From Thermoleophilia bacterium SCSIO 60948 (GTDB lineage: Bacteria > Actinomycetota > Thermoleophilia > Solirubrobacterales > 70-9), in NCBI GenBank assembly GCA_021496505.1, contig CP053031.1, forward strand, positions 620,001 to 684,000: a stretch of DNA of 64,000 nt, read 5' to 3'. The notes below the pieces were generated by a model, which was not told the origin of the DNA, did no database searches, and saw only the letters and a program-made list of their open reading frames with translations. Shown here piece by piece: positions 25,980 to 56,844 of this stretch; position 1 is the stretch's first letter, and each line of letters opens with the position of its first letter. Position numbers and translations under genes: made by a program.

Positions 25980-26072
25980 GGGGCGGCAGGGGTCTGGTGG
26001 CCCATCCGATCTTCAAAATCGGCAGGGCGGTGCAGCCCACCGCTTGGAAGGTTCGATTCCTTCGCCGCCTCG
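25980..26072 (+). tRNA. selC: tRNA-Sec (anticodon TCA)
   Basis: 93 nt. The 8-bp acceptor GGGGCGGC/GCCGCCTC (one G-T pair) plus 5-bp T stem GAAGG/CCTTC give the 13-bp 8+5 stack typical of bacterial tRNA-Sec. A long D stem closes a 4-nt TGGT loop; anticodon stem CCGAT/ATCGG holds loop CTTCAAA with TCA at 26013-26015; the long variable arm has stem GCGGTG/CACCGC. Discriminator is G at 26072 and no CCA is encoded. A tRNA-Ser with UGA anticodon is ruled out by the TCA anticodon and the 8-bp acceptor. The 3' half from 26011 is repeated four more times downstream. Confidence 0.93.
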
Positions 26073-26281
26073 TGCGCAAAGAGCCTGCAAACGCTGAGAG
26101 GGCGTTCTCAGTAGGCCTGTCGGGTGGTCTCTGAGAGGGTCGAACAGGGCCGTTTCGGCCCGATATCGACAAGAGCGCAAACTACCGCGCACCCCTATCG
26201 GCGCGTCCTCGGCGAGCCGGCGCCGGCAAGAAATCTGCGGTCCAAACCGGGGGCGGGGTCAAGGTGTGCGGTCGCTTCGAG
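26011..26281 (+). repeat. selC-derived direct repeat, copy 1 (inside and after the intact tRNA)
   Basis: Begins at the anticodon loop (CTTCAAA) and runs through the tRNA 3' end. It then carries a hairpin CTGAGA/TCTCAG (26094-26111), a second hairpin GGGCCG-TTT-CGGCCC (26147-26161), the block GATATCGACAAGAGCG and ACTACCGCGCAC, and a weaker promoter-like end (GTCGCTTCGAG). The first 62 nt are identical in copies 2, 3 and 5. Confidence 0.9.
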
Positions 26282-26387
26282 TCGAGGTCAAGGAACCGCG
26301 GGACCGGGCTGGAGTGATCTCGGCCTCCGTCGCCGCCCAGAGATGTTTCGCCCTAAGCCTCGGACTTGTCGGTTGCCGGAGCGTCTG

Positions 26388-27554: not shown

Positions 27555-27733
27555 CGGTCAATCCTCGAGGGGCGAGATGAGACACGCATGAGGTGCGCGT
27601 GAGAAACCGCCGGCGCGTTCGTGGCGGATTGCGCGTCTCGCCCCATGCCGCGGGTGCGGTTCGGCAGCGGCTGGGACCGTGTCCTACCCAGGCTTCGCGG
27701 AATCGACTCGCAGGCGCGCCCACCCGCCCCTCG

Positions 27734-28020
27734 CACCAGCATGCAAGCCTTCAAAATCGGCAGGGCGGTGCAGCCCACCGCTTGGAAGGTTCGATTCCTT
27801 CGCCGCCTCGTGGAAGAAGTGCCTGCAAACGCTGAGAGGGCGTTCTCAGTAGGCGTGTCGGCCGGTCTCGGAGAGGGTCGAACAGGGCCGATTCGGCCCG
27901 ATATCGACAAGAGCGCAAACTACCGCGCACCCGGATCGGCGCCCTCTCGGCGACCTGGCGCGGCCAAGAAAGTCGCGGTCGAAATCGGGGGGAGCGGGGA
28001 GGTGTGCCGTAGCGTCGATC
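27734..28020 (+). repeat. selC-derived direct repeat, copy 2
   Basis: CACCAGCATGCAAGC leads into CTTCAAA (27749-27755) and the exact 3' half of tRNA-Sec to 27810. Both downstream hairpins and the ACTACCGCGCAC block follow, ending at a promoter-like GTAGCGTCGAT (28009-28019). The 5' half of the tRNA is absent and replaced by GCATGCAAGC, so no cloverleaf forms. Confidence 0.92.
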
Positions 28021-28052
28021 GGAAGGCAAGAACACGACGAGAGGACCCTCCG

Positions 28053-28421
28053 ATGAAGACGACGATCACCGACGCCCCCGCGTGGGCCCCGCAGCTGATC
28101 GAGCTGGCCTCGAAGCTGCCGACCGGCGACATGATCAACGACCGCGACGATCTGACCGAGCTGCTTCGCCGGTTGCTCGAGGCGACCGCGGACGCATCGA
28201 CCGAGCTCTGGGACACCCAAGGCGAGGAGCTCTACGTCGACGAGTTCAGCCCGAGCCCGGAAGAGGTTGCCGAGATGAGCGCCCCGATGCGCGCCGCCTA
28301 CGTGGCCAAGCTCGTTCGCACCTTCGCGCTTTGCTTCGGAACCCCGCGGCCGGGGGAGGCTCCTCGCGACGTCGACTCGCACGCAGGGCTGGCCGCTCGG
28401 GTCGTGGAGGTGGTGCGGTAG
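28053..28421 (+). CDS. Repeat-linked small protein, paralogue 1
   Basis: 122 aa from ATG 28053 after GAGAGGA, starting 38 nt after the promoter-like end of repeat copy 2. Mostly helical, acidic. The central block ELWDTQGEELYVDEF ... EMSAPMRAAYVAKL ... GTPRPGEAP aligns with the protein at 39782-40147, which sits at the same distance after repeat copy 5. No known family recognised. Position and size resemble cassette genes such as immunity proteins, but there is no direct evidence. Confidence 0.75.
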   Translation: MKTTITDAPAWAPQLIELASKLPTGDMINDRDDLTELLRRLLEATADASTELWDTQGEELYVDEFSPSPEEVAEMSAPMRAAYVAKLVRTFALCFGTPRPGEAPRDVDSHAGLAARVVEVVR

Positions 28422-28947: not shown

Positions 28948-29090
28948 TCGTGCTCGAGTAGTGGTAGGTCTGGGGAATCCGGGCGGCGACGTGATCGTCG
29001 GCGGGGAGCCGCTCGGGCCGATGGGGCCAGACAACGCACAGCACCTACAACCGGCGAGACTTGGAGTCGCGGAACATATGGTGCCAGGGC

Positions 29091-31502
29091 ATGTCTGACG
29101 ACGCGAAGGTCTTCTTTGGATACCCCTCGAGCCCCGAGAGTTCACGCGAAACGCTCGCCAGTGCGGCCGCAACGCTGGGACGCGTTGGCGGTATCGCCGT
29201 CAAGACTTGGGAAGATCTCACCATTAGCGGGCAGATCGTCATCGAGAAGATTCTCTCGGCGATCGACGCGGCGAGGCTTTGCGTATTTGACATCACGACT
29301 CTGAACGAGAACGTCCTGTTCGAGATCGGCTACGCGATCGGCCGCGAGAAGCCAATCTGGCTTGTTCGAGATACGTCAGACGAGGTAGCGGCCGAACGTT
29401 GGAATCAAATCGGAATCGTCGACGGCCTCGGGTACGAGACGTTCGTTAACTCAGACGAAATCGTCGGTCCATTTATGGAAGTGCGCCCGGATACGGGCCA
29501 CTCGCCTGCGATCGTTGACGTTCATGGTTTTGCCGAGCGAGACCCTGGATCGGTGGCGTCGATCTTCTACATGCAAGGACTGCACGCAACGAACGCCGAC
29601 AAGGAGTTGATTCGGACCGTCGAGAGGGAGCGGGAGCAGGGCTTAGAGGTCACTATCGCCGACGCGCGTGAGTCCTCCGTCGAGGCTCTGGGATGGTACG
29701 TCCGGCAGTGTGCCCGGGCCGACACCATACTGCTGCACTTGGCGTCGGCGAATCGGCAGATGAGCGCTACGCACAACGCACGGTGCGGCTTAGTAGCCGG
29801 ACTGGCGCGCGGGATGGACAAACCGGTTCTAATGCTCGCAACCAGCGACTTCGAATCCCCATTCGACTATCGAGATCTCCTTTACCGGTACGAGAACGCT
29901 CGCGATTGCGCCGATCGTGCTAACAAATGGCTCGCAAATCGTCTGGACGCCGCACATCAAGAGCTAGAAGCGCGGGCGAAGCATGCGGTGGAACGGCGTC
30001 GAAGTTCCGAGCTGGCGTCTCTGCGACTTGGCGAGCATGTCGCTGAGAACGAATCGAAGACGCTCGGTGAGTACTTCGTCACCACACACCTTTACCAAGC
30101 GGTCGTAAGGGGTGGGGCTCGGCTGTTCGTAGGTCGGAAGGGAACGGGAAAGACGGCAACGCTCCTCCAAGCGACTCGTGAATTTGAGCGAGATCGCCGT
30201 GTTCTCGCCTGCAGCATGCAACCGTCCTCATACGATCTAACTGGATTTGAGCGCGTGATGTCGCGGATTGCAGCTCGCGACACACGTCAGATCATCATTG
30301 AAGCATTCTGGAAGTACTTGTTGTACTCGCAGATGTCACTTGAGTTGACCGAGGAACTGAGACGGCGTCCGGCTGGCATCGAACCGGGTACCCCTGAGTG
30401 GGACTTGGATCAATACTTGCGGGGACCTGGGGCCATCTTCACTCGCGACTTCGGTGTCCGAATTGACCATGCCCTCGAACGACTTGAGCAGGCCGGCTTA
30501 GGTAGTAACCCCACTGCGGATCGCGCGAACCTTGCCAACGCACTCCATACGAAGCTCATCGCGGAGCTTCGTGATCTCATCGCGCCTTGTTTGACTTACA
30601 AGGATCGCGTTGCAGTGCTGGTTGACAACCTCGACGCCTCGTGGGATCCACGGGAGGATCTAAGCGCCGCTTCAGACCTACTTTTAGGCCTAATCGCGGC
30701 CTCTCGGAAGGTCTCAAAGGACCTCGAGCGGAGACTTCCTAGCGTTGGGCGCGAGGAGTTTGAAGTTTCGGTTGCGGTCTTCTTAAGAAGCGACATCTTC
30801 GAACGCATTAGGGATCGCGCACCGGAGCCCGACAAACTCCCCCTTGAGCGCATTGAATGGAACGATGAAGCGACCCTCTTGCGTGTCGTCGGCGAACGGT
30901 ACGTGGCCGCCGTAGATAACGAACGCGCCCGACCGCAGGAGCTTTGGGAGCGCTACTTCACCGGAATTCTCGACGATCTGTCTCCTAGTGCGTACGTTCT
31001 CGAGCGAGTGATTCCGCGTCCACGCGATATAGTGTGGTGGTGTAACACAGCGCTGGACGTCGCTTCACGGCGTGGTCACGCCCAGGTTACACCGGACGAC
31101 CTACGTGAAGCGGAAAGTCTCTACTCGAGGTTCGTTATAGAGGCGATGCAGGTGGAGCTCGGCTCCCTGACTGACGATCCAGAAGCTCTCATATATGCGT
31201 TTGCTGGGGCGCCGGACCAAGTCTCAGAGGACGATGTCATCGCGATGCTAAGAGGCGCTGGGGTAAGAGACGAGGACCTCGATGCGGTTACGAAGGCTCT
31301 GATTGGCTTCACTTTCTTGGGGCTGCTGACCCAGGCACCCCACGCGCAGTTCGCAAGCGACCTACATCAGGTGGAGCGGTTGCGCGCTCTCGCCCGCGGC
31401 TCTGCCCGCCGCGGCGTCGCCGTTCGGTACTGCATCCATCCCGCTTTCCATTCGTATCTCGAAGTAGGCCCCGTACATCCTGATCAGCAGGCCCTCGCGT
31501 AG
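29091..31502 (+). CDS. Two-sensor P-loop NTPase, putative defence protein
   Basis: 803 aa from ATG 29091 (a TTG at 29061 also fits). Residues 5-90 form a TIR/nucleoside-deoxyribosyltransferase-like fold: FFGYPSSPESSRETL, CVFDITTLNENVLFEIGYA with a candidate catalytic Glu, and REKPIWLV. A second, weaker copy follows near 140-260 (ILLHLASANRQMSATHN, ARGMDKPVLML). A P-loop NTPase comes next: Walker A GRKGTGKTA near 360 and Walker B AVLVDNLDASWD near 520, then an all-helical C terminus. Architecture resembles NTPase-linked antiphage effectors, but family membership is inferred. Codon use is much more A/T-rich (TTA, ATA, AGT) than neighbouring genes, indicating horizontal gain. Confidence 0.7.
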   Translation: MSDDAKVFFGYPSSPESSRETLASAAATLGRVGGIAVKTWEDLTISGQIVIEKILSAIDAARLCVFDITTLNENVLFEIGYAIGREKPIWLVRDTSDEVAAERWNQIGIVDGLGYETFVNSDEIVGPFMEVRPDTGHSPAIVDVHGFAERDPGSVASIFYMQGLHATNADKELIRTVEREREQGLEVTIADARESSVEALGWYVRQCARADTILLHLASANRQMSATHNARCGLVAGLARGMDKPVLMLATSDFESPFDYRDLLYRYENARDCADRANKWLANRLDAAHQELEARAKHAVERRRSSELASLRLGEHVAENESKTLGEYFVTTHLYQAVVRGGARLFVGRKGTGKTATLLQATREFERDRRVLACSMQPSSYDLTGFERVMSRIAARDTRQIIIEAFWKYLLYSQMSLELTEELRRRPAGIEPGTPEWDLDQYLRGPGAIFTRDFGVRIDHALERLEQAGLGSNPTADRANLANALHTKLIAELRDLIAPCLTYKDRVAVLVDNLDASWDPREDLSAASDLLLGLIAASRKVSKDLERRLPSVGREEFEVSVAVFLRSDIFERIRDRAPEPDKLPLERIEWNDEATLLRVVGERYVAAVDNERARPQELWERYFTGILDDLSPSAYVLERVIPRPRDIVWWCNTALDVASRRGHAQVTPDDLREAESLYSRFVIEAMQVELGSLTDDPEALIYAFAGAPDQVSEDDVIAMLRGAGVRDEDLDAVTKALIGFTFLGLLTQAPHAQFASDLHQVERLRALARGSARRGVAVRYCIHPAFHSYLEVGPVHPDQQALA

Positions 31503-31614
31503 TACCACGGACCGGTTGCAAGTCACGCGATCGTGACCCTGGTCGCGACGGCGATCGCGATGGCCGTCTCTCGCCGCCGCGACCCAGCGTCGATGAGGCC
31601 GCCCTGCGGTGTCC

Positions 31615-31900
31615 CACATCAGCATGCAAGCCTTCAAAATCGGCAGGGCGGTGCAGCCCACCGCTTGGAAGGTTCGATTCCTTCGCCGCCTCGTGGGAGA
31701 AGTGCCTGCAAACGCTGAGAGGGCGTTCTCAGTAGACATTGCGAGCTGTCTCGGAAGCATCGAATCGGGCGGTTTCGGCCCGATATCGACAAGAGCGCAA
31801 ACTACCGCGCACCCCGATCAGCGCCTCCGCGCGAGCTAAATTCGGCGAGGGAGTCGCCGCCCAAATCGGGGGCCGAGCCCTTTCGTGGCGTAGCTTCGAT
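31615..31900 (+). repeat. selC-derived direct repeat, copy 3
   Basis: CACATCAGCATGCAAGC followed by CTTCAAA (31632-31638) and the exact tRNA 3' half to 31693. The CTGAGA/TCTCAG hairpin and GATATCGACAAGAGCG block are kept; the region between them is more divergent. Ends at GTGGCGTAGCTTCGAT (31885-31900), a promoter-like box shared with copies 4 and 5. The stretch 31503-31614 before it has no gene. Confidence 0.92.
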
Positions 31901-32003
31901 CGAGCCGGTTGAACCTCGACGCCTGGGTGCCGCCGAGGCCAAGCGCGAAGTCGGGATCGACACCTTGGTTCTCGACCGTAGTCGAGGGTTTAACGTCACA
32001 GGG

Positions 32004-32324
32004 GTGCGTTCCGACTACCGAGAGAGTGCCGTAGGCCCGGAGCTCTGCCACCTACTCGAGGCCTACTTCCATCAGGACATGGACTTAGAGGGCGGTAGTC
32101 CAGGCGAGATAGTTCGGACCTACTCACGAGGTGAGCCGCGCGCGAATCAGCTCGCTCTAGCAATCGAGATCGAAGCTCTACTGAACGGGCCCGAGCCAGA
32201 AGAGCTTGGCGGCGCGATGCAGGAGATGACGGACTTCGTCGTGGTTGGTGGCGACTACTCCCCGCGCGAGTTCTTATGCCTCGTCCTCGGAGCGCTACAA
32301 GCTTGTACCGCGGGCCGGCGCTAG
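32004..32324 (+). CDS. CdiI-like immunity protein (CdiI_2 type)
   Basis: 106 aa from GTG 32004; a TTG at 31965 would extend it. The segment CHLLEAYFHQDMDLEGGSPGEIV followed by LALAIEIEALL and YSPREFLCLVLGAL matches the contact-dependent growth inhibition immunity family, in which YFHQDWDLE is the signature. Such proteins neutralise a specific delivered toxin; no toxin or CdiA/CdiB partner is in the window, so it is an orphan immunity gene. First gene after repeat copy 3. Confidence 0.72.
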   Translation: MRSDYRESAVGPELCHLLEAYFHQDMDLEGGSPGEIVRTYSRGEPRANQLALAIEIEALLNGPEPEELGGAMQEMTDFVVVGGDYSPREFLCLVLGALQACTAGRR

Positions 32325-34142: not shown

Positions 34143-34958
34143 CTACTCGAGCCCGACGGGCTCCCAGTCCCGCCAGGCGTCGAGGTAGGTCTCGACGAGC
34201 CATTGCTCGATCACTGCCTGCGGAGGTGGACTCTGGTGAGGAACTGGCGCGGACTCAAGCTGGGCGATCAGCCCATCGAGCTCCTCCAGGATTTCTGCCG
34301 GGGGCACGCGTCCCATTCGGACATCCATCAGCCGACTCCGTTGAGGCTCAGGGACGGGCAGCGTGATCTTGAGATCAGTGAGCAGCTCGATGCCCTGATA
34401 GCCAATTCGCAACGCATGCATCGCGTACTTGGTGTCGTAGCCGAATTCCTCGCTCAGCTCTCGCTCGCGCGGTCGACCGTGGCCAGAGCCCTTCTCGAGC
34501 AGACCCTTTCGCTGCGACTGCAGGTAGCCGAGGAAGCTCTCCTTCACCCGGCCGGCGATGACGAGTTGGTCGGCCATGGCGCGCAGCTGGCGGCCGGCTT
34601 CGGTCTCGATCAGCACGTGCTCAGGCGGCGCGAAGAGCGGGAGCAGGACCGTCGGGCTTCCCTTCAGCGCGAGGCGGCAGTACCTGCGCAGGCTGTAGAC
34701 GATTAGGTCGAGGTCGCCGGGGCCGCTCGGCACGCCTTCGGGCTGAGTGCGATGCGAGTGATGCTCGAATTGCCCGAGACCGATCCATGCCTCGGGAGGC
34801 TCGATGGTGATCGCCATCTCGTCGCGATCGTCCGTGCCCGCGCGGACGAGACCGTGGACCTGCGAGCCGACGACGGTGCGGAGGATGCAGCCATGTTCGG
34901 CGATTCTCGCGCTCGGACCGGTGCCCCACTCGCTAGCGGTGTCGTTCGCATCGTCCAT
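34143..34958 (-). CDS. RlaP-type nucleotidyltransferase (DNA polymerase beta superfamily, RNA-repair associated)
   Basis: 271 aa from ATG 34958 (a further ATG at 34988 is possible). TVVGSQVHGLVRAGTDDRDEMAI is the GS...G...(S/T)D.D nucleotidyltransferase core; DLDLIVYSLRRYCRLALKGSPTVL and ESFLGYLQSQRKGLLEKGSG are typical of the RlaP family (Pfam 10127), described as companion of RNA repair ligases. The RtcB ligase gene lies 0.8 kb away on the other strand, which supports an RNA repair function for the segment. Direct substrate unknown. Confidence 0.8.
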   Translation of the reverse strand: MDDANDTASEWGTGPSARIAEHGCILRTVVGSQVHGLVRAGTDDRDEMAITIEPPEAWIGLGQFEHHSHRTQPEGVPSGPGDLDLIVYSLRRYCRLALKGSPTVLLPLFAPPEHVLIETEAGRQLRAMADQLVIAGRVKESFLGYLQSQRKGLLEKGSGHGRPRERELSEEFGYDTKYAMHALRIGYQGIELLTDLKITLPVPEPQRSRLMDVRMGRVPPAEILEELDGLIAQLESAPVPHQSPPPQAVIEQWLVETYLDAWRDWEPVGLE

Positions 34959-35013
34959 CGCTGCGAGTCTGCCGGGAACTGACTCCATCCGTTCCGCTCA
35001 CCGGAGCTCGGCA

Positions 35014-35139
35014 CTAAGGCGACTCCGTCGCCCGCAAGATCTCTAGCGCTCGGGCGGCGAGCGCACGCACCTCGCTCCATTCGGGTGATGAACGGATGCC
35101 GGTGACCGTCCAAAGCTCGGCGCTCTCGTGCCCGCTCAT
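35014..35139 (-). CDS. Small protein, coupled partner (41 aa)
   Basis: ATG 35139 overlaps the stop of the gene before it (ATGA), implying translational coupling. The peptide (HESAELWTVTGIRSS..., EVRALAARALEILRATE) is helical. Size and coupling suggest one half of a two-gene unit; function unknown. Confidence 0.45.
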   Translation of the reverse strand: MSGHESAELWTVTGIRSSPEWSEVRALAARALEILRATESP

Positions 35140-35348
35140 CTGACTGAGTTTTCGTCGACATCCAGGAGTGCCTGCGTTGCGGGCTCTGGGGTGTCTTGGT
35201 TGCCGAGTACCACTCGAAGCGTGTCGTTGTAGTCCAGGGCGAGCTCGTCCGGATCGAAGTTCCCGGCGGTGAGGTGGCGTAGCTGATCGGCCGGATCTGA
35301 AGCCAATTGCCTGAGCGCTTCCTGTAGTTCTAGGGTCCAATCACGCAC
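35136..35348 (-). CDS. Small acidic helical protein (70 aa)
   Basis: GTG 35348 chosen because upstream codons become composition-biased. WTLELQEALRQLASDPADQL and FDPDELALDYNDTLRVVLG form two helices with an acidic linker. Followed in ATGA overlap by the 41-aa gene. Unknown family. Confidence 0.45.
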   Translation of the reverse strand: MRDWTLELQEALRQLASDPADQLRHLTAGNFDPDELALDYNDTLRVVLGNQDTPEPATQALLDVDENSVR

Positions 35349-35765
35349 GGACCGTCCGCGAGAGCTGGCCTCGTCTTCGGGGGATAGCCGGACGGCCGGC
35401 CCTACAGACGCTCTACCGGTCCCGCCTCTTACCTGCGTCTCGACCAGTGGCGTAGCCGTACCCACTGCCGTGCTACAACTACCCGCCCGTGTTCTTCGCC
35501 GCAGCACACCTGACCAACCCCACCCGCAGCACCGCTGCCGGGTTGGTCTCAAGCTGCTCGCAGAAGCGGCTGGGCCAGCGGCCCGGACGAGATATCTAGG
35601 CGGACGCCTCTCGCTCGCGACCTCTGGGTCGCCCGAACCGAAGCAGACGTTCGCCGCCCCGGAATCACTCATTGCCGTGATGCGCTGCCGCGCACACGGA
35701 CCTCACATCAGGACGGGTCGAGGAGCCCGTCGCGCACGCCGGGTGCGCAAGACCAGAAGGAACCC
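35349..35765. other. Gap between the small gene pair and rtcB
   Basis: About 417 nt between divergent genes, expected to hold the rtcB promoter. No recognisable gene, repeat or operator; AGAAGGAA just before 35766 is the rtcB ribosome site. Confidence 0.4.
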
Positions 35766-37073
35766 ATGACGTACGTGTACGGAGAAGCAGACGAAGCAAC
35801 GCTCGCGCAGATGGCGCGATGCCTGGCCGCGGAGGAGGGCGCCATCGGCGTCCTGTGCGCAGACAACCACCTCGGCTACAGCCAGCCGATCGGCGGCGCG
35901 GTCGCCTACCGCGATCACATCTCGCCCAGCGGTGTCGGCTACGACATCGGTTGCGGCAACAAGGCGGTTCGAACGCCTCTGCTCGCCTCTGAGATCGAGG
36001 TCGGACCGGCGATGGATGAGATCGCGCGTCGGGTCAGCTTCGGCATGGGCCGCGTCAACGACGAGCCGGTCGATCACCCGGTGCTCGACGAGATCGCCGC
36101 CGCGGACTTCGCCCCGCAGCGTCGCATGGTCCAGGCCGCTCGAAACCAGCTCGGCACGGTCGGATCGGGCAACCACTACGTGGACCTCTTCGCTGATGAG
36201 GAGGACCGCGTGTGGGTCGGCGTCCACTTCGGCTCGCGCGGATTCGGCCACAAGACGGCGTCCGGATTCCTGGCGCTCGCCGAGGGTCTGCAGTTCACCG
36301 ATCGCGCCGCCGACGCTCCGATGCACTCGCCGCCGGTGACGTTCGCGATCGACTCTGACCTCGGACAGGCCTACATCGAGGCGATGGGGCTCGCCGGGCG
36401 CTACGCCTACGCGGGTCGCGACGTCGTGGTCGACAAGGTGCTCGAGATTCTCGGCACTGAATCCGTCGAGGAGGTCCACAACCACCACAACTTCGCCTGG
36501 CGCGAGGAGCACGGTGGCGAGGACTATTGGGTCGTGCGAAAGGGCTGCACGCCGGCGTTCCCGGGTCAGCGCGGATTCGTGGGTGCGTCGATGGGCGAGG
36601 ACAGCGTGATCCTCGAGGGCACCGAGGCCGCCGAGCCGGGACTGTTCTCGACGGTCCACGGTGCGGGCCGAGCGATGAGCCGCATGAAGGCGGCGGGCAA
36701 GTTCCGCTTCCGCAAGCGCTACGCGTGCATGGACCGGGACTGCGATCGCCTCTTCGAGCCCGACCAGGTTCGAGTTGTCGACGGTGGGCCTGAGCGCGGT
36801 GTTTGCCCCGATCACCCGGATGCGCGTGTGAAGAAGGTCCGTGTCTCCGAGCGGGTTCGGGAAGGCCTGATCGACTTCCCGTCGGTCCAGGCCGAGATCG
36901 CCGCGAAGGGGATCGAGCTGCGAGGCGGCGCCGCCGACGAGGCGCCGGCTGCCTACAAGCGACTCGACGAGGTGCTCGAGGCTCACGGCGAAACGATCCG
37001 CGTCATCCACCGCCTGCGCCCGCTGGGCGTCGCGATGGCGGGTGCGGGGACGGTGGACCCCTACCGCGACTGA
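35766..37073 (+). CDS. rtcB: RtcB-type RNA 3'-phosphate ligase with zinc-knuckle insert
   Basis: 435 aa. SGVGYDIGCGNKAVRT near 58 holds the metal-binding Asp and Cys, GSGNHYVDLF near 137, VHNHHNFAWREEHG near 240 has metal-binding His, and STVHGAGRAMSR near 299 carries the guanylylated His. RtcB joins 2',3'-cyclic phosphate or 3'-phosphate ends to 5'-OH, healing cleaved tRNAs. Between the catalytic His and the C-terminal part lies an insert of about 35 residues with CMDRDC ... VCPDHP, a likely Zn knuckle. Start has AGAAGGAA. Carried in the selC array, near the RlaP-type gene. Confidence 0.92.
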   Translation: MTYVYGEADEATLAQMARCLAAEEGAIGVLCADNHLGYSQPIGGAVAYRDHISPSGVGYDIGCGNKAVRTPLLASEIEVGPAMDEIARRVSFGMGRVNDEPVDHPVLDEIAAADFAPQRRMVQAARNQLGTVGSGNHYVDLFADEEDRVWVGVHFGSRGFGHKTASGFLALAEGLQFTDRAADAPMHSPPVTFAIDSDLGQAYIEAMGLAGRYAYAGRDVVVDKVLEILGTESVEEVHNHHNFAWREEHGGEDYWVVRKGCTPAFPGQRGFVGASMGEDSVILEGTEAAEPGLFSTVHGAGRAMSRMKAAGKFRFRKRYACMDRDCDRLFEPDQVRVVDGGPERGVCPDHPDARVKKVRVSERVREGLIDFPSVQAEIAAKGIELRGGAADEAPAAYKRLDEVLEAHGETIRVIHRLRPLGVAMAGAGTVDPYRD

Positions 37074-37185: not shown

Positions 37186-37635
37186 TTAAGGCGCACGCTC
37201 GGAGTTCGATGGCCACTCGCCAGACTTCTCGAACTGTTCCCTCCGCTCCGCATCACGCAGCATGAGCCTTAGGTAGTGGTCTGCTCGCGCATCGGTCAGA
37301 CAGCTGTTGCCGCTCACGGTCGGCGGCTTGAGGCCCGCTTCCCTGAAGCGCTCCGAGACCTCCGGACAATCGGCAGGCGTCTGGAATGGAGCTCCAGTAA
37401 TGCTGTCCTGGCTCTCCTCGACGTCCTCTCGGTCGAATGATCCCGCGACCGCCAGCCCGGCCGGCACGGCTATGGCAACCAGAGCCGCACCCAGACTCGC
37501 CCAGAACTTACGGCGGCCGCGCCGCACCGTCTCAGCGAGGCCGGCCTCGACGCTGCGTCTCATCCGATCGCTCTCGGCCTCGCTGGGTGATGCAGGCTCC
37601 CCCCGATTAGCGCGCGCGACGTCAAGCGGGTCCAT
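37186..37635 (-). CDS. Single-pass membrane protein, probable anti-sigma partner
   Basis: 149 aa. Cytoplasmic N-terminal 45 residues rich in charge (DPLDVARANRGEPASPSEAESDRMRRSVE), one transmembrane helix near 47-65, and an outer domain with two Cys (TPADCPEV, GNSCLTDAR). Start overlaps the sigma gene stop by one base (TGATG). By position it should hold and release the ECF factor. Confidence 0.65.
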   Translation of the reverse strand: MDPLDVARANRGEPASPSEAESDRMRRSVEAGLAETVRRGRRKFWASLGAALVAIAVPAGLAVAGSFDREDVEESQDSITGAPFQTPADCPEVSERFREAGLKPPTVSGNSCLTDARADHYLRLMLRDAERREQFEKSGEWPSNSERAP

Positions 37636-38222
37636 CAGATGACCTCCGGAGTGGGATTGTCTTGCTGGCTCGCCAGGAGCTCACGCTCGAGCTGCCTTCG
37701 AGCTCGGGACAGACGTGACTTGACGGTTCCGGCGGGAATGGCGAGCGCCTCGCCTATCTCAGCCTGCGAGAGATCGGCGTAGATGTAGAGCAGGACGACC
37801 GCGGCGTCGTTCTTGCTCAGGGATCTCAAGACTCGGCCGAGGTCGGGAATCCGTCTTTGAGCCTCCGCCCGCTCGACAACACCATCTTCGATTGAAGGCG
37901 GGCCGGGGTCGGGCGACAGGCGGCCTAGGGCCCGCCGCTCGCGAGCTGCGCTGCGCGAGTGCCGCAGGAGCTTGTTCGTCGCGATCCCCAGGAGCCACGG
38001 ACGAGCGCTCTGATGTCCGGACCGAAACGTATTTCGCTTCTCGAACGCAGTGAGGAATGTCGCCGTCGCCAGATCTTCGGCCGTTTCCCTTCGTACGCGA
38101 AACGCGAGGTAGCCGAAGACCGCCGGGTGGTGTCGCTCGAAGATCTCCCCGAAGACCTCAGGTGTCTCGCGAGAGCGGCGAAGGAGCTCGGCATCTGATG
38201 TGGCGTCGGTGGTGCTGTTCAA
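37635..38222 (-). CDS. ECF RNA polymerase sigma factor (pair 1)
   Basis: 195 aa from TTG 38222 after AGCAGGA. Sigma-70 region 2 is visible as VFGEIFERHHPAVFGYLAFRV and AEDLATATFLTAFEKR, and region 4 as LSQAEIGEALAIPAGTVKSRLSRARRQL. Upstream sequence contains GTGTGAACCGTTT, which could be an ECF-type -35 element for autoregulation. Partner gene follows directly. Confidence 0.9.
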   Translation of the reverse strand: MNSTTDATSDAELLRRSRETPEVFGEIFERHHPAVFGYLAFRVRRETAEDLATATFLTAFEKRNTFRSGHQSARPWLLGIATNKLLRHSRSAARERRALGRLSPDPGPPSIEDGVVERAEAQRRIPDLGRVLRSLSKNDAAVVLLYIYADLSQAEIGEALAIPAGTVKSRLSRARRQLERELLASQQDNPTPEVI

Positions 38223-38726: not shown

Positions 38727-38843
38727 CACATCAGCATCCAAGCCTTCAAATCGGCAGGACGGTGCAGCCCACCGCTTCCCAGAGACCATCGAGATCTCCC
38801 GGATCCAGATCGGAGGGGTTGGGTGGCGTGGCGTAGCTTCGAT
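38727..38843 (+). repeat. selC-derived direct repeat, copy 4 (decayed, internally deleted)
   Basis: CACATCAGCATCCAAGC + CTTCAAA (38744-38750) + TCGGCAGGACGGTGCAGCCCACCGCTT, that is the anticodon loop and variable arm with one base lost after the loop; the T arm, acceptor and both hairpins are missing. The distal end GTGGCGTAGCTTCGATT (38828-38844) is preserved, so the promoter-like box outlived the rest. Confidence 0.85.
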
Positions 38844-38926
38844 TCAAGGCCATAGAGTTCAGCCGCCAGACTCGCGGACCGACTCGAAGCGGCCGGGATC
38901 GAGCCTGAGCGACTACGAGGAGGCCC

Positions 38927-39325
38927 ATGGACATCCCCGAGCCGGTCGAGTTCTTCGTCCCGAACACCGATCCCGAGCAATGCGAAGCCCGCTGGCAGGA
39001 GCTTCGAGAGGCGGTTCAGAGCGGCAGGAACCAGCAGCTGGGCGACGAGCGCATCTACTCGATCTCGTTCGAGAGCAACCGCGGCCTCTGCACCGCCACC
39101 GTCGGGAGCTCGATCCGGGTCAGGACTCCGCGCAAGCGAGGCGGCTACGACACGAACTACGGCACCAGCACGATCCTCGCGATCTTCTCTGGGCCGTCGT
39201 ACCTGATCGTCCAGGAGCCCGGTCCGAACGAGTGGCACAACCCGGCGATGGCGGGAGTGCCCACGCTGGTCGTCTATTTCGTAGGTCTCGGGGACTGGAC
39301 CGGATACGGCCCACCCACGGCCTGA
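38927..39325 (+). CDS. Repeat-linked hypothetical protein
   Basis: 132 aa from ATG 38927 behind GAGGAGG, 88 nt after the promoter-like end of repeat copy 4. VEFFVPNTDPEQCEARWQEL helix, then beta-rich RIYSISFESNRGLCTATVGS and AIFSGPSYLIVQEPGP. No family recognised. Only gene between copies 4 and 5. Confidence 0.6.
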   Translation: MDIPEPVEFFVPNTDPEQCEARWQELREAVQSGRNQQLGDERIYSISFESNRGLCTATVGSSIRVRTPRKRGGYDTNYGTSTILAIFSGPSYLIVQEPGPNEWHNPAMAGVPTLVVYFVGLGDWTGYGPPTA

Positions 39326-39462
39326 CCTCGGTCCCAGGCAAGACCGCGGAAATTACCGGGAAGGTGTGATGGAGCTGCACGGGTGGGGTCGTTGTCTGCG
39401 GCGGTCAATCCCGCCGCGCTCGGAAGCGTTTCGCCGACAGGGCAAACCGCCCTCCGGCGGCC

Positions 39463-39750
39463 GACATCAGCATGCAAGCCTTCAAAATCGGCAGGGCGGT
39501 GCAGCCCACCGCTTGGAAGGTTCGATTCCTTCGCCGCCTCGTGGGAGAAGTGCCTGCAAACGCTGAGAGGTCGTTCTCAAGAGGCGTGTCGGCTGGTCTC
39601 GAAAGAGGTCGAACGGGGCGGTTTCGGCCCGATATCGACAAGAGCGCAAACTACCGCGCGCCCTGATCTGCGCCATCGAGGTGAGCCGACGGCGGCAAGA
39701 AATCTGCGGTCCAAATCGGGGGGAGAGCACTTTCGTGGCGTAGCTTCGAT
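39463..39750 (+). repeat. selC-derived direct repeat, copy 5
   Basis: GACATCAGCATGCAAGC + CTTCAAA (39480-39486) and the exact tRNA 3' half to 39541; both downstream blocks kept (GATATCGACAAGAGCG, ACTACCGCGCG), ending in TTTCGTGGCGTAGCTTCGAT (39731-39750). Longest similarity is to copy 3 over the promoter end and to copy 1 over the AAGAAATCTGCGGTCC block. 39326-39462 before it has no gene. Confidence 0.92.
39741..39746 (+). promoter_or_regulatory. Promoter-like TAGCTT box at repeat end
   Basis: GTGGCGTAGCTTCGAT is retained at the end of copies 3, 4 and 5 (modified in 1 and 2), 36-90 nt before the cargo start. The same GTGGCGTAG(T/C) motif precedes the gene at 59716, supporting a -10 role. Confidence 0.45.
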
Positions 39751-39781
39751 TTCAGGAAGCAAACCGCGACGGAAGGACCCA

Positions 39782-40147
39782 ATGATGGACACGACCGACG
39801 AGACCCTCGACCCGCGCCACCCGGCGCTCAGGCGAGTCGAGCAAGCGTCCTGGGACGACATCAAGGCCGCCCTCTACGACGCCCAGGAAGCCCTCACTCG
39901 CGCGCTCGCCGCGAGCGCGAAGGACCTCGAGCTCTGGAACCGCGAGGGCGAGCAGCTCTACGGCGACGAGTTCCTCGTCGAGACGGAGGAGAGCGAGGCG
40001 ATGAGCGATCGGATGAACAGCGCCTACATCGCCCGGCACCTGAAGAACGCTGCGCTGGCGCTCGGCATGCCGCGACCGGGCGAGCGGCCGGCCTGGTCGG
40101 ACTCGCCGATCGGACTGGTCGACGGGCTGGCGGAGGACGTCGGCTAG
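39782..40147 (+). CDS. Repeat-linked small protein, paralogue 2
   Basis: 121 aa from ATG 39782 (next ATG 39785) after GGAAGGA. The block ELWNREGEQLYGDEF ... AMSDRMNSAYIARHLKNAALALG ... MPRPGERP aligns with the product at 28053-28421; the N-terminal thirds differ. Same distance from a selC-derived repeat (36 nt after TAGCTT versus 38 nt). Four-nucleotide tail-to-tail overlap with the next gene. Unknown function. Confidence 0.75.
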   Translation: MMDTTDETLDPRHPALRRVEQASWDDIKAALYDAQEALTRALAASAKDLELWNREGEQLYGDEFLVETEESEAMSDRMNSAYIARHLKNAALALGMPRPGERPAWSDSPIGLVDGLAEDVG

Positions 40148-49351: not shown

Positions 49352-49570
49352 CGCAGCTCCTCGTCGTGGTAGCCCCGTCGTTGAGCGAACGCGACTAGCT
49401 CTCGGCGCGCTCGACGAGCGCAGCGTCCTCGGGCTTGCCCGTGACGCTGACCCCGCGTCCGCGCCTGAACTCGAGTAGGCCCTCCTCGCGCAGGATTCGA
49501 AGGGCTCGTAAGACGGTGTTCTTAATCACCTCGGGCACGGCGTGAGATTGACATCGAGCATGGTGCTATG
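49352..49570 (-). pseudogene. Decayed duplicate of the YtrA-like GntR regulator
   Basis: Nucleotide similarity to 55736-56089 is plain over the C-terminal half (GAACTCGAG...GGACGGTGTTCTT-type blocks) and over the start (reading MHSTMLDVNL). About 115 nt encoding most of the winged helix are deleted, and the frame is broken. Operator and divergent gene were duplicated with it. Confidence 0.75.
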
Positions 49571-49575
49571 CATAG
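49566..49575. promoter_or_regulatory. GntR operator copy A
   Basis: CTATGCATAG palindrome within a 36-nt stretch (49546-49581) identical to the one before the intact regulator (56062-56097). Overlaps the broken regulator's start codon. Confidence 0.6.
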
Positions 49576-49587
49576 TAGCTCTATCTG

Positions 49588-50223
49588 ATGAGTTCGCAAG
49601 TCGAAGATCGACAAGCGGCCGAAGAGCGCGATCGCGACGCCGCAGAGCTCGATGCGGTAATTCGCGAAGCGCGAATGCGCTCCCGGCGGCGGCGCCGGAT
49701 TCAGGCGTTGGCGGTCCTTGCCGTCGCGGCGGCTCTCGGGGCGGCCGCCGTGCTGCTCTTACGCACCGAGCGGGGAGCCACAACCATCGAGCCCGAGACC
49801 GCGCCCGCAGGCTTCACCAGCGAGCCGGACGCGTTCCCGTGGGGAAGAGCGTTTCGAACAAACGAACTGGTGACGGCCGGCGATACCGAGCCGCTCAAGC
49901 CGCCTGGACTCACACTGTCGTTCGTTGCCCGCGACGGGGGCATTACCAACCCTGGTGGCGAGCCGCGCGCGTTCGTCGGCACCACTTCTGGCTGCAACCG
50001 TGCCGGTGCCTTCGTTGGCAGTGTGGACGACGGAGTCATCACATCGCGCCCTGGTCCTACGACAGCGGTAAAGTGTCGGCCGGGCGTCGCCCGGCAAGAG
50101 CGGCTGGTCTCGGAGTTCATGGACTCCAGACCGCGATGGCGGTACGACGGAGAGGCCCTGGTTCTGACCTCGGGGTCGGAGCGGTTCGTGCTCGAGGAAG
50201 CGGGTCCGGCGGGCATCGGCTGA
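49588..50223 (+). CDS. Single-pass membrane protein with META-like outer domain
   Basis: 211 aa. N-terminal QAAEERDRDAAELDAVIREA cytoplasmic helix shared with the gene at 56104, one transmembrane segment near 44-62, then an outer domain ending in GTTSGCNRAGAFVG ... VKCRPGVARQE ... WRYDGEALVLTSGSERFVL, like META/HslJ domains. Divergent from the regulator remnant, so it may once have been under its control. Confidence 0.65.
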   Translation: MSSQVEDRQAAEERDRDAAELDAVIREARMRSRRRRRIQALAVLAVAAALGAAAVLLLRTERGATTIEPETAPAGFTSEPDAFPWGRAFRTNELVTAGDTEPLKPPGLTLSFVARDGGITNPGGEPRAFVGTTSGCNRAGAFVGSVDDGVITSRPGPTTAVKCRPGVARQERLVSEFMDSRPRWRYDGEALVLTSGSERFVLEEAGPAGIG

Positions 50224-55732: not shown

Positions 55733-56089
55733 TTAGCTCACCGACTCGATGATCCGCCGCAGCTCTTCGTCGCGGTAGCCCTGCCGTCGAGCGAACGCGA
55801 CCAGCTCTCTGGCGCGCTCGACGAGCGCAGCATCCTCGGGCTTGCCGGTGACGCTGACGCCGCGTCCACGTCTGAACTCGAGCAAGCCCTCTTCGCGGAG
55901 GATCCGAAGGGCCCGCAGGACGGTGTTCTTGTTGACCTCAAGCACGGCGGCGATGTCCTTCGCCGGCGGCAGGCGCTCGCCCGGACCCGCCTCGCCCTCG
56001 GCGATCGACCGGCGGATGGCTGCGGCTACCTGTTCGTGGAGGTCGCCTGCCGACCGGTCTAGATTGACATCGAGCATGGTGCTATGCAT
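55733..56089 (-). CDS. YtrA-like GntR transcriptional repressor
   Basis: 118 aa: N-terminal winged helix with LHEQVAAAIRRSIAEGEAGP, GERLPPAKDIAAVLEVNKNTVLRALRIL and GLLEFRRGRGVSV, then only a short helical tail, the size of the YtrA subfamily. ATG 56089 lies inside the CTATGCATAG operator with a TACTAT box just upstream, so the mRNA may be leaderless and autoregulated. MLDVNL (56077) is an alternative start. Divergent from the gene at 56104. Confidence 0.88.
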   Translation of the reverse strand: MHSTMLDVNLDRSAGDLHEQVAAAIRRSIAEGEAGPGERLPPAKDIAAVLEVNKNTVLRALRILREEGLLEFRRGRGVSVTGKPEDAALVERARELVAFARRQGYRDEELRRIIESVS

Positions 56090-56091
56090 AG
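56082..56091. promoter_or_regulatory. GntR operator copy B
   Basis: CTATGCATAG, a perfect 10-bp palindrome overlapping the repressor start and lying just before the divergent gene, ideal to shut both. Its 36-nt context is duplicated at 49546-49581. Confidence 0.65.
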
Positions 56092-56103
56092 TAGCTCCAT
56101 CAG

Positions 56104-56844
56104 ATGGCGACGCAAGTCGGAGAACGACACGCAGCCGAAGAGCGCGATCGCGACGCCGCAGAGCTCGAGGCGGTCATTCGCGAGGCAAAGGCGCGCTCGC
56201 GGCGCAGGCGTCTGAGGCTTTGGGCGGGTTTGCTCGCGGGCGGAGCGATCGCCACCATCGTTGCGCTTTGGGCCGTGGATGGGCCGGCGAACGATCGTGC
56301 GCCGTCTGGCCCTGCGCCGACTTCTTCGGCGGCGGGCGGCTGCTCGAGCGGCGTACCTCCGACTGATCGCCCGACTGCCGCCACCTCCGGCAGCTCGACC
56401 TACTCGCTGAGCCGTGAGGCTCGAACGAGGTGGCCTGGAGACTTCGGAGGCGTATGGCGGGGCAGCCTTCGTCGGGATGCGCCGATCTACGTGGCCTTCA
56501 CCTGTCGGGCGGAGGAGCGAGTAGAGCGCCTGGCGGAGTCGTTCCCTCAGCCAAATCGGCTCGAGGCCCGCACCGTTGATGTGCCTCTCGCGTCGCTCAA
56601 TAGTGTCCGCGACGAGATCAACGAGGACACCGAGATGCCCCGCTCCCTGCGTCCCAACGGGATACCGGGCCACGTATCCGCGCTCTACACGCACTCGAAG
56701 GGGAACTTCGTGAACGTCGGCATTGAGCAGCCGACGCCCGAGCTCAAGCGCAGCTTCCGCGCGGCGTACGGACCGACGGTTCGAGTGAGAGACCGGCGAG
56801 AGCAGTTCTTCCCATCTGAGCGCGGCGCCCTCTCGCCGCGATGA
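56104..56844 (+). CDS. Single-pass membrane protein under GntR control
   Basis: 246 aa. HAAEERDRDAAELEAVIREA cytoplasmic helix nearly identical to that of the gene at 49588, helix near 38-58, outer domain with two Cys near 80 and 137 (GGCSSGVPP, FTCRAEER). Outer domain not recognised. Starts 14 nt from the divergent repressor start. Confidence 0.65.
   Translation: MATQVGERHAAEERDRDAAELEAVIREAKARSRRRRLRLWAGLLAGGAIATIVALWAVDGPANDRAPSGPAPTSSAAGGCSSGVPPTDRPTAATSGSSTYSLSREARTRWPGDFGGVWRGSLRRDAPIYVAFTCRAEERVERLAESFPQPNRLEARTVDVPLASLNSVRDEINEDTEMPRSLRPNGIPGHVSALYTHSKGNFVNVGIEQPTPELKRSFRAAYGPTVRVRDRREQFFPSERGALSPR

Follow-up and report, generated by a model that had tools for sequence, protein, structure and literature searches.

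A predicted RlaP–RtcB RNA-repair pair in a genomic island at a tRNA-Sec gene of Solirubrobacterales

According to passages in two papers that cite Burroughs and Aravind (2016, NAR 44:8525), nucleotidyltransferases of the RlaP family accompany RNA ligases and are predicted to replace missing nucleotides ahead of ligation (PMC7824862), and RlaP occurs across several counter-RNase repair systems (PMC6514570). As far as these passages describe them, such systems resemble the locus studied here in combining an RlaP nucleotidyltransferase with an RtcB-family ligase, in their sporadic distribution and in their additional presence in phages with tRNA clusters. In contrast to what is described there, the two genes analyzed here form a divergent pair within a tRNA-Sec island, the RtcB carries a zinc-ribbon-like insert, and neither a PNKP phosphatase nor a release factor adjoins them. 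The RtcAB/RtcR operon of Proteobacteria (PMC7790460) likewise includes an RtcB ligase whose presumed substrates are damaged tRNAs, but neither the RtcA cyclase nor the RtcR activator was recognized among the neighboring ORFs scanned here, and RlaP is present instead. A further parallel is the PrfH–RtcB2 operon (PMC9223846), in which a horizontally spread RtcB protects from an RNase toxin; unlike that operon, our locus has no PrfH among the neighboring ORFs, and its RtcB scored above the cutoff of no NCBIfam model, reaching 90 against a cutoff of 272 for TIGR03073.

The RlaP and RtcB genes and their products

We analyzed a window of 64,000 nucleotides (positions 620001–684000, on a single contig) from a 3.42-Mb genome that, judged by its relatives, belongs to the order Solirubrobacterales. 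The window carries a gene for an RlaP-type Pol-beta nucleotidyltransferase (34143–34988, minus strand; 281 aa) and a gene for an RtcB RNA ligase (35766–37073, plus strand; 435 aa), which matched PF10127 (83.2 bits against a cutoff of 23, E = 3e-23) and PF01139 (216 bits against a cutoff of 27, E = 1e-63), respectively. Neither family has another match in the genome. The two genes are divergent, with start codons separated by 777 bp, and the region between them (34989–35765) contains no Rfam family and no convincing ORF; the Rfam search thus gave neither a Y-RNA nor any other known RNA there. The initial annotation, which had placed two RNA-repair families 0.8 kb apart within one inter-repeat segment, was accurate as to coordinates, strands and families.

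The segment is bounded by the partial tRNA-Sec repeats R3 and R4, described below, although neither gene adjoins a repeat: 2.2 kb separate R3 from the 3′ end of the RlaP gene, and 1.7 kb lie between the RtcB gene and the start of R4. A CdiI_2 immunity gene, a DUF7668 protein and an ECF sigma factor are encoded in the same segment. GC3 was 0.85 for RtcB and 0.81 for RlaP, compared with about 0.93 for flanking core genes, which supports acquisition from a donor with different codon use. The sigma factor gene (37635–38222) lies beside RtcB and overlaps by one base a 149-aa gene (37186–37635) with no Pfam match, which could be the anti-sigma factor of the adjoining gene.

RtcB-family enzymes join a 2′,3′-cyclic-phosphate or 3′-phosphate end to a 5′-OH end via a GMP-histidine intermediate, and metal-independent RNases leave such ends. 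In an alignment with the P. horikoshii RtcB structures 4dwr and 1uc2, the catalytic residues of the RtcB studied here were conserved in the motifs GYDIGCG, GSGNH, VHFGSRG and HGAGR, so that the Asp, Cys and His metal ligands and the guanylylated-His motif HGAGR were all present. Its closest relative found, with 77% identity, belongs to the same bacterial family (genome G006, which has no RlaP) and lies between an AMP-binding gene and cysS. Comparison of the two gave a dN of 0.17 and a dS of 0.97 (dN/dS of about 0.18), indicating purifying selection. In the phylogenetic tree, this RtcB fell into a clade clearly apart from the canonical RtcB of the class. A Cys-rich insert just past HGAGR is present in nine of ten relatives from Solirubrobacterales; it contains two pairs (CxxxxC and CxxH/C) and resembles a zinc ribbon, and it is absent from genome G052 and from the three nearest phage versions. 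Taken by its sequence, the protein is an intact member of the ligase family and a predicted RNA ligase. A second RtcB gene in G006 is broken by an in-frame stop. In other relatives the surroundings of RtcB vary. A protein of ~390 aa without a Pfam match, a possible regulator, recurs beside RtcB of this clade, often divergently (six loci), and was not found in the window.

In RlaP, the active-site residues G41, S42, D54, D56 and D94 (GS...DDRD...D signature) were invariant across 38 homologs, and the AlphaFold model (pLDDT 87.8) had a Pol-beta nucleotidyltransferase fold. The best matches of the model among solved structures were kanamycin nucleotidyltransferase-type enzymes and HalB, with E-values of about 1e-4 to 1e-3 and low TM-scores; phage nucleotidyltransferases were the best viral matches and were stronger than those to solved structures. 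A sequence search for solved RlaP structures gave no credible hit. The protein sits on a long branch in the tree, and it may therefore be evolving faster. Across 53 RlaP loci, no conserved neighbor was general among the matches listed. With its motif and modeled fold, this RlaP is an intact family member and a predicted nucleotidyltransferase.

A repeat array at tRNA-Sec and the small genes behind it

Unrelated cargo is frequently integrated at tRNA genes. The array containing the RlaP/RtcB segment is anchored on a tRNA-Sec gene with anticodon TCA (25980–26072, plus strand), recognized by ARAGORN and by Rfam (RF01852, 62.8 bits). Five plus-strand copies of the 3′ portion of tRNA-Sec, from the anticodon loop onward, were found, the first within the tRNA gene itself, confirming that the tRNA-anchored array reported initially is real. 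R1 (26011–26292) begins with the 3′ part of the tRNA-Sec gene; R2 (27716–28030) consists of an upstream arm, the tRNA-Sec 3′ part and ~220 nt; R3 (31599–31906) and R4 (38735–38849), the latter degenerate with a large internal deletion, form the left and right borders of the RlaP/RtcB segment; and R5 (39447–39761) is the last copy. The upstream arm, 15–17 nt long, is common to R2–R5, and R1, R2, R3 and R5 share the ~220 nt past the tRNA end at 82–92% identity. A second repeat pair (49404–49699 and 55811–56215, 85–87% identity) is unrelated to tRNA-Sec.

The ~220-nt part was absent elsewhere among 399 genomes of the class, in which other matches spanned about 27–44 nt, and an invariant 25-mer of the repeat was found in no viral contig. 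Short matches in relatives to positions 206–252 of the repeat query were set aside as apparently chance GC-rich similarities, mostly in coding sequence. Elsewhere in the order, tRNA-Sec is found in genomes that lack the downstream repeat part. Separately, genome G079 holds four additional partial copies of tRNA-Sec, of which two lie 63–65 kb from the tRNA-Sec gene, and tRNA-Sec may be a recurrent integration site in the order. No recombinase domain was detected among the window ORFs scanned, and the six tyrosine recombinases of the genome all lie at least 0.63 Mb from the window. A promoter and terminator scan of the array gave no excess over shuffled sequences. Beyond about 26 kb, the rest of the window has weaker codon bias than the part preceding it, and the island is gene-poor.

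As attachment-site cores in tRNA-gene islands and serial integrations often do, these repeats start in the anticodon loop and extend to the 3′ end of the tRNA; unlike in such islands, the five copies are closely spaced, share a common ~220-nt downstream part and occur in an island in which no recombinase was found. The repeats look like attachment-site remnants of serial integration at the tRNA, and the acquisition of RlaP and RtcB as island cargo is supported. Of the earlier view of mobile RNA repair carried next to a tRNA-anchored array, the placement in a tRNA-Sec island and the lower GC3 stand, while mobility is read from location and codon use only. A functional tie between pair and array, also proposed initially, found no support. 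Relatives carry the whole pair (G224 and G406, both Solirubrobacteraceae) or RtcB (G006) at loci without tRNA-Sec, and for this reason the array is best read as a vehicle for the pair and not as a functional partner, the link between them looking incidental and being unproven.

Four of the five repeats (R2–R5) are followed, 20–80 nt downstream, by a small plus-strand gene. The gene 58 nt past R3 (31965–32324, plus strand) belongs to the CdiI_2 immunity family (PF18593, 52.3 bits against a cutoff of 26.7). The ends produced by RNase A-type metal-independent RNases are generally usable by RtcB. The nearest solved relative of the CdiI_2 product, at a weak E = 0.012, is CdiI 5e3e of Yersinia kristensenii, which inhibits a toxin of the RNase A family whose RNase activity is metal-independent (PMC9086364). 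The presence of this gene near the pair is a circumstantial hint that they might share an anti-RNase role. The genes behind R2 and R5 (28053–28421 and 39782–40147, plus strand) are homologous and encode proteins of 122 and 121 aa with 42% identity, and a 132-aa gene behind R4 starts at 38927 on the plus strand. Between R2 and R3, an 813-aa protein (29061–31502) combines an N-terminal nucleoside deoxyribosyltransferase/TIR-like region with a C-terminal Sll1717-type P-loop ATPase (NF047389, 249 bits) and is a possible defense gene; PADLOC gave a weak TIR match for this gene only and assigned no defense family to the RlaP/RtcB pair. One could imagine the island as an integron-like cassette array on a tRNA gene, in which the repeats with their leader would serve as integration sites, immunity-type genes would act against the RNase toxins of competitors, and RtcB and RlaP would form the repair arm. 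We consider this quite unlikely; if true, it would represent a novel type of repository for anti-toxin genes, anchored on a tRNA.

Pairing of RlaP and RtcB in other genomes and phages

We analyzed the distribution of both families across 399 genomes of the class, in which RlaP occurs in 21 and RtcB in 116. RtcB was present in 12 of the 21 RlaP genomes and in 104 of the 378 without RlaP (Fisher p = 0.005, a value that ignores shared ancestry and pools several RtcB types). Among 53 RlaP loci drawn from about 85,000 species, four had RtcB within 10 kb; the other 49 lacked it in the available flanking DNA, several of these contigs being short. In G224 and G406, members of genus g13, RlaP and RtcB are divergent and separated by ~2.1 kb that encode an HNH protein and a ~395-aa protein, unlike the intergenic region here. 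A Streptosporangium locus (L087, 9446–13688) encodes a HAD_PNKP phosphatase, RlaP, two proteins of unknown family and RtcB, all co-directionally. HAD_PNKP lies directly upstream of RlaP at two further loci, in three Streptosporangiaceae in all; no such phosphatase was found in the window. Linkage at 8.6 kb was seen in a Mycobacterium locus. The two genes are 1.4 Mb apart in G052 and on different contigs in another genome. The tRNA-rich mycobacteriophage PegLeg carries both, RlaP as gp47 and RtcB as gp119, the latter where its tRNA cluster ends.

The class-wide co-occurrence, the linkage in G224, G406 and Streptosporangium and the presence of both genes in PegLeg support a pairing beyond chance; the initial annotation had named co-occurrence of the two families in islands as a check. 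No relative lacking the array had both genes at the same place; where present, they sit elsewhere. By family membership, the pair would be a known kind of repair kit for toxin-cut RNA in an unusual setting, and a role in RNA repair is likely.

A probable role in RNA repair and competing readings

We propose, with moderate confidence, that RlaP and RtcB constitute a small kit for the repair of RNase-cut cellular RNA and are cargo of a genomic island grown at the tRNA-Sec gene. The substrate, most likely tRNA, would be RNA of the cell that metal-independent RNases have cut, whether these are delivered toxins or the cell's own phage-triggered enzymes. RtcB would seal the 2′,3′-cyclic-phosphate or 3′-phosphate end to the 5′-OH end, and RlaP would re-add nucleotides that went missing once the RNA was cut. 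Being a nucleotidyltransferase of the Pol-beta type, RlaP should need a 3′-OH and would probably serve breaks from which the 3′ phosphate has been removed, a view suggested by the PNKP-type phosphatase gene that adjoins RlaP in Streptosporangiaceae. The 3′-OH left by RlaP should be no substrate for RtcB, so a simple order of RlaP and then RtcB fails without another enzyme, and the restoring role before ligation, in the form in which PMC7824862 cites it, by itself leaves the sealing of a 3′-OH by RtcB unexplained. RlaP may thus act alongside RtcB, or with another ligase, and not directly before RtcB. The tRNA-Sec repeats would be attachment-site remnants, a vehicle and not a substrate. Several observations count against a repair kit: the genes are divergent and form no operon, 49 of the 53 RlaP loci are unlinked, G052 keeps the two genes far apart, and the genome has no match to a MazF-type nuclease or a PrrC/RloC-type ATPase. 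The initial annotation had suggested looking for anticodon nucleases in the same genomes, and searches of this one with PF02452 (MazF-type) and PF13166 (AAA_13, covering PrrC and RloC through the ATPase domain only) found none. In a search with RNAse_A_bac (PF18431), no control gave a match.

The two genes might instead be chance neighbors that entered the island separately and act independently. In that case RtcB would be a general-purpose RNA ligase, and RlaP a nucleotidyltransferase unrelated to it. We regard this as rather doubtful. It fits the 777-bp divergent arrangement without a shared operon, the 49 RlaP loci without linked RtcB and the absence of RlaP from G006, the nearest RtcB relative; yet the divergent layout recurs in genus g13, Streptosporangium has a co-directional block, the families co-occur across the class, and by simple arithmetic random placement within 3 kb of each other in a ~4-Mb genome would occur in about 0.15% of genomes. 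A very unlikely reading is that RlaP and RtcB are relics without current function in a degenerating island. The gene-poor island with its weak codon bias, the degenerate R4, the broken second RtcB of G006 and the long RlaP branch are in keeping with decay, but both reading frames are full length with intact active-site residues, and the dN/dS of RtcB argues for continued constraint.

Repair could also be one part of an immunity-and-repair depot, in which small immunity genes behind the repeats neutralize the RNase toxins of competitors while RtcB and RlaP mend the cut RNA. The CdiI_2 gene behind R3, its match to 5e3e, the homologous genes behind R2 and R5 and the gene behind R4 point this way, but no toxin gene was identified, the R2 and R5 genes belong to no recognized family, and the connection to CdiI consists of one gene and one weak structural match; on balance, we judge a depot unlikely. 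Repair of tRNA-Sec itself would explain the position of the pair at the array, and the Sec system is probably in use, since SelB is encoded at the very start of the window (618682–620346 of the genome). However, in relatives RtcB or the pair sits at loci that have no tRNA-Sec, none being found at the linked loci of G224 and G406 or at the G006 RtcB locus, and unrelated cargo commonly integrates at tRNA genes. The idea of tRNA-Sec as a substrate, raised in the initial annotation, is exceedingly improbable; nothing but position connects the pair to it.

An RNA-repair kit carried as island cargo, our preferred reading, would add a Solirubrobacterales case to the pairing of RlaP with RtcB, its divergent layout shared with another genus of the order. 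It also raises the question of how an enzyme that leaves a 3′-OH works beside a ligase that needs a 3′ phosphate, into which the PNKP-phosphatase, RlaP and RtcB block of Streptosporangium offers a route.
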